Assembly (NCBI GenBank): GCA_024653305.1 | Contig: JANLFW010000007.1 | Span: 1 to 64,000 of the forward strand | DNA: 64,000 nucleotides | Reading direction: 5' to 3' | DNA from: Candidatus Acetothermia bacterium | GTDB lineage: Bacteria; Bipolaricaulota; Bipolaricaulia; Bipolaricaulales; Bipolaricaulaceae | Shown here: positions 32,876 to 36,534 of the stretch, piece by piece | How the letters are laid out: every line of letters begins with the position of its first letter | Numbering within the stretch: position 1 is the first letter of the stretch | The notes under the pieces: generated by a model | Seen by the model: only the letters and a program-made list of their open reading frames with translations | Databases searched by the model: none | What the model was told of the DNA's origin: nothing | Position numbers and translations under genes: made by a program

Positions 32876-33168
32876 CTACAGGTTGAGGAAGACGATCCCG
32901 ACCAGGATCGCCACCACCCCAAGGAGGAACCCCCACAGGGGCGTGGTAAACGCGAGCGGCACCACCCGCGACAGTTCCCCCGCTTGAGGGCAATGTAGAA
33001 CGCGAGCATCCCCAGCGCCCGCGCCGGCAGCTTCGGCGCGGCGAGCAGGATCAGCACCGTCGTCGACACCGCCAAACGCACCGCCAGGCCCTGCTCCGGG
33101 GCCAGCCCAGCGGTGGACATGCCCTTCTTCCCGAAGAACGACCCCACCGCCCACAGCTCCGACCGCAT
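32876..33168 (-). pseudogene. Decayed EamA/DMT transporter gene
   Basis: Fragments of one EamA transporter domain are readable. SELWAVGSFFGKKGMSTAGL, RLAVSTTVLILLAAPKL and ARALGMLAFYIALKRG lie in one frame; ELSRVVPLAFTTPLWGFLLG and VVAILVGIVFLNL in another. The frame changes at a C5 run (32977-32981), where one extra base would rejoin them. Even when rejoined it is only about 98 aa, and the helix after PKL and the segment after PLWGFLLG seem missing, so this is a remnant with deletions. It starts at the fhs stop (TGATG). Confidence 0.72.
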
Positions 33169-34853
33169 CACGCGAGCCCTACCACGTTGCCGTCCTCATC
33201 CAGGTCCACCCGCTCCCCGGCCGGATGGGACGGGAGCCCTGGCATGGTCCGGATCTCCCCACACAGGGCGTACAGGAACCCGGCCCCAACCGACGGTCGG
33301 ATGTCCCGCACCGGGAGCACGAACCCTTCCGGCCGCCCCTTAAGCCCCGGATCGTGGGAGAGGGAGAGATGGGTCTTGGCCATGCACACCGGGAACGCAT
33401 CCCAGCCGAGGTCGGTGTAGCGGGCGAGCATCCTTTTCGCCCTCGGGGTGAACTCCACGTCTGCCGCCCCGTACATCCGGGTGGCCACAACCCGGATCTT
33501 GTCGGCGATGGGAAGGTCGAGGTCGTACAGAAACCGGAACTCCACCGGTTCCTCGGCGGCGGCCAGCACCGCCTCGGCGAGCGCCGTCCCGCCCTCCCCC
33601 CCGTGTGCCCACGCCGCACACTCTACGGCGGCCCTGGCTCCCGCGGCCAGGGCCCGCTCCCGCACCACCTGGATCTCCGATGCCCGATCGGAATCGAACC
33701 GGTTGATGGCCACCACGCACGGGACCCCATAGGCGCGCGCGTTCTCGATGTGCTTCTCCAGGTTCGCGCACCCCGCGGCCACCGCCTCCGGGGCCTCCTG
33801 AGCAAGCCGAGGGTCCAGGGGCTTCCCTGGGCGTACGTCGAACCGGCCGGAGTGGGCTTTGAGCGCACGCACGGTGGCCACCAGCACCACCGCGTCCGGG
33901 CGGAGCCCGGACGCCCGGCACTTGATGTTCATGAACTTCTCCATGCCGATGTCCGAGCCAAACCCGGCCTCAGTGACCACGTGGTCGGCAAGCCGCAGGG
34001 CGATCTGGTCGGCGAGCACCGAGGAGTTCCCGTGGGCGATGTTGGCGAACGGCCCGGCGTGGATGAACGCCGGCGTCCCCTCCAGGGTCTGGAGGAGGTT
34101 CGGCTTGATCGCGTCCCGCAAGAGGGCAGCCATCGCCCCAGCTGCCCTGAGGTCCTCGCACGTCACCGGTCGGCCATCCCGGGCAAACGCCACCACCATC
34201 CGTCCGATGCGGGCCCGCATGTCGGCTAGCCCGTCGGTCAGGGCGAGGATGGCCATCAGCTCCGAGGTCGGGGTGATGTCGAACCCGGTTCGGCGCACGT
34301 GGCCGGCGAGGCCCACGATCACGTCCTCCAGGGCCCACCGATCGCACAGGTCCACGACCCGGCGGAGCACGATCTCCTCGGGGTCGATGTCCAGGGCGTT
34401 GCCCCGATAGAGGTGGTTGTCGAGGAACGCGCACGCCAGGTTGTGGGCGATGGACACGGCGTGGAAGTCGCCGGTGAGGTGGAGGTTGAGGTCCTCCATA
34501 GGCAGGATCTGGGAACGGCCGCCGCCGGCGGCGCCGCCCTTGATCCCGAACACCGGCCCGAGCGACGGCTGGCGCAGGCACACCACCGACGTCTTCCCCA
34601 ACCGCCACAAGGCCTGGGCGAGGCCGATCGCGGTCACCGTCTTCCCTTCCCCGAGCGGGGTCGGGGTGATCCCGGTCACCACCACGTACTTCCCGAGCGG
34701 CGCATCCGCCCGCCGGGCGAGGGCGTCGAGCTTGACCTTGGCCTTGTGGTCGCCATAGAGCTCGAGCTCGTCCCGGCTCAAACCCACCATGGCCGCCACA
34801 TCCCAAATCTTCTTGAGCCTTACGCTCCGCGCGATCGCCAAGTCGGAGTTCAC
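33168..34853 (-). CDS. fhs: Formate-tetrahydrofolate ligase
   Basis: A 561-aa ATP-dependent enzyme making 10-formyl-THF from formate, the first methyl-branch step of the Wood-Ljungdahl pathway. It has the P-loop TPLGEGKTVTAIGLAQAL, LRQPSLGPVFGIKGGAAGGG, FHAVSIAHNLACAFLDNH and FANIAHGNSSVLAD. The GTG at 34853 has TTGGAGG upstream and the usual N-terminus (SDLAIARSVRLKKIWDVA). It is divergent from folD-fchA, which carry out the next two steps. The two -10 boxes overlap around 34880-34888. Confidence 0.96.
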   Translation of the reverse strand: MNSDLAIARSVRLKKIWDVAAMVGLSRDELELYGDHKAKVKLDALARRADAPLGKYVVVTGITPTPLGEGKTVTAIGLAQALWRLGKTSVVCLRQPSLGPVFGIKGGAAGGGRSQILPMEDLNLHLTGDFHAVSIAHNLACAFLDNHLYRGNALDIDPEEIVLRRVVDLCDRWALEDVIVGLAGHVRRTGFDITPTSELMAILALTDGLADMRARIGRMVVAFARDGRPVTCEDLRAAGAMAALLRDAIKPNLLQTLEGTPAFIHAGPFANIAHGNSSVLADQIALRLADHVVTEAGFGSDIGMEKFMNIKCRASGLRPDAVVLVATVRALKAHSGRFDVRPGKPLDPRLAQEAPEAVAAGCANLEKHIENARAYGVPCVVAINRFDSDRASEIQVVRERALAAGARAAVECAAWAHGGEGGTALAEAVLAAAEEPVEFRFLYDLDLPIADKIRVVATRMYGAADVEFTPRAKRMLARYTDLGWDAFPVCMAKTHLSLSHDPGLKGRPEGFVLPVRDIRPSVGAGFLYALCGEIRTMPGLPSHPAGERVDLDEDGNVVGLA

Positions 34854-34898: not shown

Positions 34899-35825
34899 AT
34901 GAACACAAGGTCGATGGAACACGGGGCGCGGGTCCTGTCCGGGGTATCCGTGGCCGAGGCCATCCGGGCCCGGATCGTCCGCGACATGGCCGGGCTGCGG
35001 GCCCACGGGGTGACGCCCACCCTGGCCGTGGTGCGGAGCGGCAGGGACAAAGCGGCGGCCGCGTACGCGGGCTCCATCCGCCGGACGGCGGGCAAGGTGG
35101 GGATCGCGGTGGTGGAGGTGGAGCTCCCCCCGAATGCCTCGCCGGAGCATGGGCTAGAGGCGATCCGGGAGTGCAGCGCCGCCGCGCACGTGCATGGGGT
35201 GCTCCTCCTCGAGCCCCTGCCGCCTAGCCCGGATCCGCTCTCGTTGGCGTTGGCCGTGCCCCCGGAGAAGGACGTGGACGGGGTCCACCCCGAGAACTTG
35301 GGGGCCCTCCTCGCCGGCGGGGCAGGGAGAGCCACCTACCACGATCTCCAGGCCCGCGACGACGTGTTCCTCCCCGCCACGGCCGAGGCGGCGATGGAGA
35401 TCCTCCTCGCCTACGGGATCGAGGTCTCCGGCCGCGAGGCGGTGGTGGTCGGCGCCGGGCGGGTCGGCCTGCCCCTGGCCGTCCTGCTCCTCCGGGAGGG
35501 CGCAACCCCCGTCACCTTATGCCGGCGCGCTACAGCGGACCTCACCACGACCACACGCCGGGCGGATCTGCTGTGCGTGGCCGCGGGGCGACCACGGCTG
35601 ATCACCGCGGACATGGTCAAGCCAGGGGCTACGGTGATCGACATCGGGATCAACGCCGCCTCGGACGGGGTAACCGGGGACGTGGACTTCGCCGGGGTGC
35701 GGGCGGTGGCCGACGCGGTCACCCCGGTCCCGGGCGGGGTAGGGCCGGTCACGGTGGCCCTGCTGCTCGCCCACACCGTGCGCGCGGCTCGGGCGGCAGC
35801 ACGGGAAAGGAGCACCCGCGAATGA
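34899..35825 (+). CDS. folD: Methylene-THF dehydrogenase (FolD), cyclohydrolase residues altered
   Basis: A 308-aa FolD protein. The N-terminal catalytic domain has EKDVDGVHPENLG with the conserved Asp; the Rossmann domain has VVVGAGRVGLPLAVLLL; the C-terminal VTPVPGGVGPVTVALL is standard. The usual YxxxK motif reads YAGSI here, so the catalytic Lys is Ile, and the VQLPLP strand reads LLEPLP, losing the Gln. Both are needed for cyclohydrolase activity in characterised FolD. I infer a mainly dehydrogenase enzyme with FchA next door doing the hydrolase step. The stop overlaps fchA (ATGA). Confidence 0.9.
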   Translation: MNTRSMEHGARVLSGVSVAEAIRARIVRDMAGLRAHGVTPTLAVVRSGRDKAAAAYAGSIRRTAGKVGIAVVEVELPPNASPEHGLEAIRECSAAAHVHGVLLLEPLPPSPDPLSLALAVPPEKDVDGVHPENLGALLAGGAGRATYHDLQARDDVFLPATAEAAMEILLAYGIEVSGREAVVVGAGRVGLPLAVLLLREGATPVTLCRRATADLTTTTRRADLLCVAAGRPRLITADMVKPGATVIDIGINAASDGVTGDVDFAGVRAVADAVTPVPGGVGPVTVALLLAHTVRAARAAARERSTRE

Positions 35826-36493
35826 CGGAGCGTTCCCTCAGGGCGATACGGGTGGAGGAATTCCTAGTGGCGTTGGGGTCGAGCGATCCCACCCCGGGCG
35901 GGGGGGCGGCGGCGGCCCTGAGCGGGGCGCTGGCCGCGGCCCTGGCCCAGATGGTGATCGGCCTCGCCCACCGTCGGGCCAAGGACCCCGTGGCCTCCAC
36001 CGCGTTGGCCACGCTCCAAGAGCGGGCGAGGGCACTGGTGGCGGGGTTCCTGGACCTGGCCGATGCCGACGTGGCCGCCTACGGCGCCGTGGCTGCCGCG
36101 TTGCGCCTGCCGCGCGGGACCTCAGAAGAACAGGAACGGCGCCGCGCCGCGGTGCAAACCGCCCTCAAGCAAGCGGCCGCTGTGCCCCTGGGCACGGCGG
36201 GAAGGGCCGTGGACGTTCTGTCCCTGGTCGGGGAAGTGGCCGCGGCGTGCCCGAAGAGCGCCCAGAGCGACCTCGCCGCCGCAGCCCGGCTGGCGTGGGC
36301 AGCGTGCTCTGCCGCCCTGGACAACGTGGACGCCAACGCCCTCTACATCGAGGATCACGATCACCTGCGCGGCATCGCCGGAGTCCGTCGGGACCTTGCC
36401 CTGGAAGCAAAGAAAAAGGCGGCTCAGGTGCTTGTTCCCCTGGAGAAGGAATTGGAGCGGTGGCTGGGAGAGAGGGATTCGAACCCCCACTAG
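35822..36493 (+). CDS. fchA: Methenyl-THF cyclohydrolase / cyclodeaminase family (FchA)
   Basis: A 223-aa all-helical protein of the formiminotransferase-cyclodeaminase C-terminal family, which includes the acetogen FchA. The start VEEFLVALGSSDPTPGGGAA is diagnostic; KSAQSDLAAAARLAWAA and ALDNVDANALYI follow. Coupled to folD and facing fhs, it more likely hydrolyses 5,10-methenyl-THF than deaminates formimino-THF, although hutI and hutH are 7-9 kb away. The last 11 codons (WLGERDSNPH, stop) lie inside the tRNA-Gln gene on the other strand. Confidence 0.88.
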   Translation: MTERSLRAIRVEEFLVALGSSDPTPGGGAAAALSGALAAALAQMVIGLAHRRAKDPVASTALATLQERARALVAGFLDLADADVAAYGAVAAALRLPRGTSEEQERRRAAVQTALKQAAAVPLGTAGRAVDVLSLVGEVAAACPKSAQSDLAAAARLAWAACSAALDNVDANALYIEDHDHLRGIAGVRRDLALEAKKKAAQVLVPLEKELERWLGERDSNPH

Positions 36494-36534
36494 CAGGTCC
36501 AGAGCCTGCCGGCCTACCGTTAGCCGATCTCCCA
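36461..36534 (-). tRNA. tRNA-Gln (CUG anticodon)
   Basis: Cloverleaf on the minus strand: acceptor TGGGAGA/TCTCCCA, discriminator G and encoded CCA. The anticodon stem is GCAGG/CCTGC with loop CTCTGGA (anticodon CTG, reading CAG). The T loop is TTCGAAT. Its 3' half overlaps the end of fchA by 33 bp. A promoter lies at 36545-36573. Confidence 0.95.

Follow-up and report, generated by a model that had tools for sequence, protein, structure and literature searches.

A FolD lacking its cyclohydrolase lysine and glutamine is encoded with an FchA-type protein in a Bipolaricaulota genome, suggesting a probable division of two activities between two proteins

Have the dehydrogenase and cyclohydrolase activities of FolD been divided between two proteins in this bacterium? 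The question was raised by a folD–fchA pair in the window (the whole stretch of DNA that was analysed, 64,000 nucleotides in length). An earlier note had read YAGSI in place of the YxxxK motif of FolD and LLEPLP in place of VQLPLP, in a gene that overlaps fchA by ATGA and has a divergent fhs next door. The motif readings were confirmed by alignment and by a sister genome, and the gene arrangement by the coordinates and by Pfam and NCBIfam domain matches. The features of the locus are listed below, with Tyr50, Lys54, Gln98 and Asp121 numbered as in E. coli FolD and columns read in alignments of about 270 FolDs.

33168-34853, minus strand: fhs, formate-THF ligase (561 aa; PF01268, 6.7e-244; NF010030 above cut-off)
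34899-35825, plus strand: folD, homologue of methylene-THF dehydrogenase that lacks the cyclohydrolase residues (308 aa; PF00763 and PF02882)
35064-35078, plus strand: YAGSI, at the position of YxxxK; Tyr50 kept (Tyr56), Lys54 replaced by Ile60 (FolD alignment)
35205-35219, plus strand: LLEPL of LLEPLP, at the position of VQLPLP; Gln98 replaced by Leu104, next residue Glu (FolD alignment)
35274-35285, plus strand: VDGV of KDVDGV; Asp121 equivalent kept (FolD alignment)
35451-35480, plus strand: GAGRVGLPLA, dinucleotide-binding loop, one residue shorter than the canonical GRSxxVGxP (alignment)
35822-35825, plus strand: ATGA, shared by the folD stop and the fchA start (sequence)
35822-36493, plus strand: fchA, FTCD_C-family protein, predicted methenyl-THF cyclohydrolase, possibly a cyclodeaminase (223 aa; PF04961, 1.6e-45)
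36461-36534, minus strand: tRNA-Gln(ctg) (ARAGORN and Rfam)

The fhs gene is divergent from folD, with 45 bp between fhs and the folD start, and the same arrangement of fhs and folD-fchA was found in G024, a genome of another genus. The tRNA-Gln gene lies antisense to the final 33 bases of fchA; the fchA ORF of the sister genome G001 ends in identical residues (WLGERDSNPH). In G016 (L338 7963-8856), a homocysteine S-methyltransferase gene sits between folD and fchA. An Anaerolineae locus (L033) carries, as consecutive genes, MTHFR, an Fe-S protein, fchA, folD, fhs and a CODH-family gene, a row that consists mostly of methyl-branch genes. The Wood-Ljungdahl pathway is encoded by part of the Bipolaricaulota (PMC9992828).

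Both residues that mark a bifunctional FolD, Lys54 of YxxxK and Gln98 of VQLPLP, are replaced in the window FolD, and the alignment showed no substitute lysine or glutamine at these positions in the FolDs of the window, G001 or G024. Chance and sequencing or assembly error were ruled out as the source of these changes, since G001, at 93% identity, has the same gene pair with YAGSI and PIEPLP in its FolD. The protein scores above the family cut-offs for PF00763 (79.1 bits) and PF02882 (168.8 bits), and the PDB folds nearest to its AlphaFold model (pLDDT 91.4) are those of FolD and MTHFD1, with TM scores up to 0.93. The NCBIfam models that match it name it bifunctional. A roughly 14-residue insert (GGAGRATYHDLQARDD) follows KDVDG, and related FolDs with Glu98 show changes similar to this insert and to the short dinucleotide loop. 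This loop has one residue fewer than usual, and the Arg-Ser normally found in GRS is altered, so that the sequence does not tell the cofactor and its preference may differ. A causal role of the shortened loop in the loss of Lys54 was rejected, since relatives with this loop keep Lys54.

Changes of this kind might be expected from a FolD in decay, with both activities gone and another enzyme in its place. The altered active site and the shortened loop would be in keeping with this, as would the long branch that leads to the window and G001 pair in the FolD tree. Nevertheless, we consider decay extremely unlikely. The genome, which is 95% complete, yielded no FolD besides this one, canonical or otherwise. 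Its frame is intact, with a dN/dS of about 0.40 between the window and G001 on 45 changes (about 0.55 for fchA, on few changes), and its model is a confident FolD. Furthermore, the protein retains Tyr50, Asp121 and the PVPGGVGPVT loop, and the shortened dinucleotide loop also occurs in relatives that keep Lys54.

The likely effect of the two replacements can be gauged from known mutants. E. coli FolD K54N has undetectable cyclohydrolase and about 19% dehydrogenase activity, and Q98H has about 1% cyclohydrolase and about 8% dehydrogenase activity (PMC5688156); the equivalent lysine and glutamine have also been named as catalytic in the enzymes of human and Leishmania (PMC3368264). Since both positions are replaced here and mutants at both are known in E. 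coli, the best reading of the window sequence is a FolD that acts as a dehydrogenase only.

The comparison of FolD motifs in genomes with and without fchA, which the earlier note had proposed, was carried out in several sets. A readable FolD was present in 80 of the 100 genomes of the window's phylum. Deviant FolDs only were found in 37 genomes, canonical FolDs only in 41, and both in two. FTCD_C was present in 36 of the 37 deviant-only genomes and in 31 of the 41 canonical-only ones. Most of the deviant FolDs in the phylum have Glu98 with Lys54 kept; Lys54 is missing in the window's genome (G000), G001, G024, G012, G082, G037, G039 and G083, all of which have FTCD_C. Two loci, L180 (G072) and L181 (G075), encode a Glu98 FolD in genomes in which no FTCD_C was found; at 80% and 75% completeness, they may be exceptions or assembly gaps, and G072 carries a canonical FolD besides. 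A third type of FolD, with Lys54 replaced by Gln, Gln98 kept and KDVEG for KDVDG, was seen in L155, L161 and L186 (G039, G037 and G083) and in L215 (G141), all in genomes with FTCD_C. The FolD of G012 (L026) has Glu in place of Lys54, His in place of Gln98, and KDVEG; its fchA lies about 12.5 kb from folD on the same contig.

In the class of Desulforamulus and G100, in Bacillota, FolD sets were read in 85 of 113 genomes. A deviant FolD was present in 64 of these, each of which had FTCD_C. Only canonical FolDs were read in 21 genomes, in which FTCD_C was absent from 13 and present in eight; in four of these eight (G155, G156, G157 and G180), a second, unread FolD adjoins FTCD_C by coordinates. 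The association between deviance and FTCD_C in this class has a Fisher value of 2.8e-10, which is inflated by shared ancestry. Direct adjacency to fchA was seen for 48 of 159 distinct FolDs, every one of them deviant. Two further sets, unlike those of the phylum and the class, were chosen in part for fchA or for resemblance to deviant FolDs: 80 named loci, in which six of the seven deviant FolDs adjoin fchA (the exception is L038) and no fchA was seen beside a canonical FolD in the flanks examined; and a Clostridia sample, in which all FolDs beside fchA have another residue, mostly Phe, in place of Gln98 and, where the position of Lys54 is readable, Ala or Ile in its place.

These distributions bear on whether FolD might retain a useful cyclohydrolase through other residues, its linkage to fchA being incidental. 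Many deviant FolDs change only Gln98 to Glu and keep Lys54, and some are unlinked to fchA, as such an explanation would predict. On the other hand, the activity of the E. coli K54N enzyme is undetectable, no alternative lysine or glutamine is present in the window, G001 or G024, and the Desulforamulus class contains no deviant FolD without FTCD_C, so that we regard a retained activity as very unlikely. That FolD has lost its cyclohydrolase function, as the earlier note had proposed, is thus well supported by the E. coli mutants at both positions and by the restriction of deviant FolDs in the Bacillota class to genomes with FTCD_C. The accompanying guess that the change might be lineage-wide was only partly right: most relatives in the window's family have canonical YxxxK and VQLPLP motifs, which rejects a trait shared throughout any rank from genus to phylum, whereas the deviant subfamily itself spans the window's phylum, Bacillota and one Anaerolineae-labelled genome.

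A tree of the 159 FolDs, from which the two trait columns were left out, was used to follow the order of the changes; the tree is unrooted and some of its rows are long. The window FolD groups with those of G001, G024 and G016 (SH-aLRT 98 for the four), and these are nested in a set of 28 FolDs of the phylum (100), most of which have Glu98 and Lys54. The FolD of L038, on a contig named Bipolaricaulota, also groups with the FolDs of the window's phylum, which makes Bipolaricaulota the probable phylum of the window's genome. Parsimony required four changes at Gln98 and eight at Lys54, which fits an early replacement of Gln98, usually by Glu, followed by loss of Lys54 in several branches. The deviant state itself changes only twice on the tree (gain and loss are not strictly separable on an unrooted tree), which suggests that deviance is essentially one ancient split. 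Consequently, the association of FolD state with fchA does not stand for a large number of separate events, and its Fisher values are overstated. With only two changes and two independent pairs, there was no support for FolD state and fchA adjacency having changed together many times independently. The Glu/His FolD of G012 is a separate case, on a branch that is otherwise canonical.

The assignment of FchA is less straightforward. The window protein matches PF04961 (FTCD_C) with 155.5 bits, above the gathering cut-off, keeps all 14 columns that are at least 90% conserved in this family, and has the methenyl-THF cyclohydrolase 7vg4 as its best PDB match by phmmer. Its score against the NCBIfam FchA equivalog NF045657 is below the cut-off (114.8 versus 275 bits). 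In the FTCD_C tree, it belongs to the clade formed by its own family, apart from the folD-linked FchAs of Bacillota, and the other members of that clade come mostly from genomes with a canonical FolD and urocanase. No other FTCD_C protein is encoded in the window's genome. A cyclohydrolase is likely and a cyclodeaminase possible, and it is plausible that the protein has both functions.

A cyclodeaminase role is possible because the genome also encodes a glutamate formiminotransferase (TIGR02024; G000:C8:53366-53893, L336 9355-10263), located in a mur/fts cluster, and a full-length urocanase on C3, two enzymes that a cyclodeaminase of histidine degradation would call for. If FTCD_C were a formimino-THF cyclodeaminase only, it would make methenyl-THF from formimino-THF during histidine breakdown, and the dehydrogenase-only FolD would reduce this to methylene-THF; 10-formyl-THF would come from Fhs, and there would be no dedicated cyclohydrolase. 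Such an arrangement draws support from the vertical orthology of FTCD_C with the proteins of sister genera that have a canonical FolD and mostly urocanase (25 of the 31 canonical-FolD phylum genomes with FTCD_C). The cyclohydrolase step can also run spontaneously in E. coli, and cells can get by on spontaneous methenyl-THF hydrolysis (PMC5688156).

FTCD_C has, however, been kept without urocanase in 18 of 36 deviant-FolD genomes versus six of 31 canonical ones (p 0.011, relatedness ignored), and G024 has the fhs/folD-fchA unit with no urocanase found (86% complete). No hut neighbours were seen around the urocanase of the window's genome, and FTCD_C is neither linked to hut genes nor fused to FTCD_N (fchA is on C7, FTCD_N on C8 and urocanase on C3). 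Glutamate formiminotransferase can stand in for 5-formyl-THF cycloligase. That cycloligase was not found in the window's genome, nor in 98 of the 100 phylum genomes, and glutamate formiminotransferase is near-universal among the 100. Given the mur/fts setting and the missing cycloligase, the formiminotransferase may have another job, and in this phylum it may replace the cycloligase. Taken together, we judge a cyclodeaminase without cyclohydrolase function to be unlikely.

A combined role is a more credible, if still tentative, alternative, which we hold to be possible. FTCD_C would then be both a formimino-THF cyclodeaminase and the cell's only methenyl-THF cyclohydrolase, a role inherited in the family that would have made the FolD cyclohydrolase dispensable. 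On more than one occasion, the canonical FolD would have been degraded, as in G012, or replaced by a dehydrogenase-only FolD, as in the window, G001 and G024.

Overall, it is probable that the two activities of FolD are divided between two proteins, with the window FolD as dehydrogenase and FchA as cyclohydrolase. Gene order, residues, fold and distribution in relatives were observed directly, whereas we infer both activities, the cofactor and co-translation. FolD would interconvert 5,10-methylene-THF and 5,10-methenyl-THF with NAD(P)(H), the co-translated FchA would interconvert methenyl-THF and 10-formyl-THF, and Fhs would link 10-formyl-THF to formate. Once FchA was present, the cyclohydrolase site of FolD would be free of selection, and the loss of Gln98 and then Lys54 fits a site that was no longer selected. 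Against this stands the frequent presence of FTCD_C in the phylum alongside canonical FolDs as well. Of the split proposed in the earlier note, the FolD half thus rests on good support, while the cyclohydrolase assignment of FchA is the best reading of its sequence, in a genome that also has formiminotransferase and urocanase.

Since the matching NCBIfam models name the window FolD bifunctional, models of one-carbon flow in Bipolaricaulota and in Wood-Ljungdahl organisms may misplace the cyclohydrolase gene. Two residues readable from sequence would flag dehydrogenase-only FolDs, and the apparent order in which they were lost offers a testable path by which a bifunctional active site comes apart. 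Because the residual activity of E. coli FolD K54N is insensitive to carolacton (PMC5688156), FolDs without Lys54 should be insensitive as well. No published survey of Lys54 and Gln98 against fchA was found in the literature searched; the survey of these residues may be new, as may the order in which they were lost.

The window FolD resembles E. coli FolD and human MTHFD1 in its fold, domains and active-site Tyr and Asp, but differs from these bifunctional enzymes in the replacement of the catalytic Lys54 and Gln98. Methylobacterium uses the dehydrogenase MtdA with a separate cyclohydrolase, FchA. The window likewise appears to have two separate enzymes, and 7vg4 is the match noted above; its dehydrogenase, however, is a FolD. 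The Desulfotomaculum-type pairs (L069, L040 and L061, and those of the class of G100) share with the window the adjacent folD-fchA, the replaced Gln98, and the loss of Lys54 in several branches, but most of their FolDs keep Lys54 with Glu98, and their FchAs form a clade of their own.

In Clostridium perfringens, FolD is reportedly a dehydrogenase only and FchA the cyclohydrolase, so the probable split in the window, which recurs in other anaerobes, is not new in kind. By its sequence, the window has the same set, a predicted dehydrogenase FolD, a separate predicted FchA cyclohydrolase and Fhs. The work of Aluri et al. 2016 (Microbiology 162:145) is cited by both PMC7219735 and PMC11559097. A separate cyclohydrolase, FchA, exists in some microorganisms (PMC7219735), and acetogen gene clusters with FchA have been described (PMC3584212). 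As in the sampled Clostridia, whose fchA-linked FolDs lack Lys54 and Gln98, the window's genome combines a residue-deficient FolD with FTCD_C. By descent, however, the two pairs do not group together: the window FolD lies in another branch of its tree and has Ile/Leu where the Clostridia have Ala/Phe, and the window FchA falls outside the Clostridia clade of the FTCD_C tree. The window is a further case of the already known FolD/FchA split, in a different lineage.
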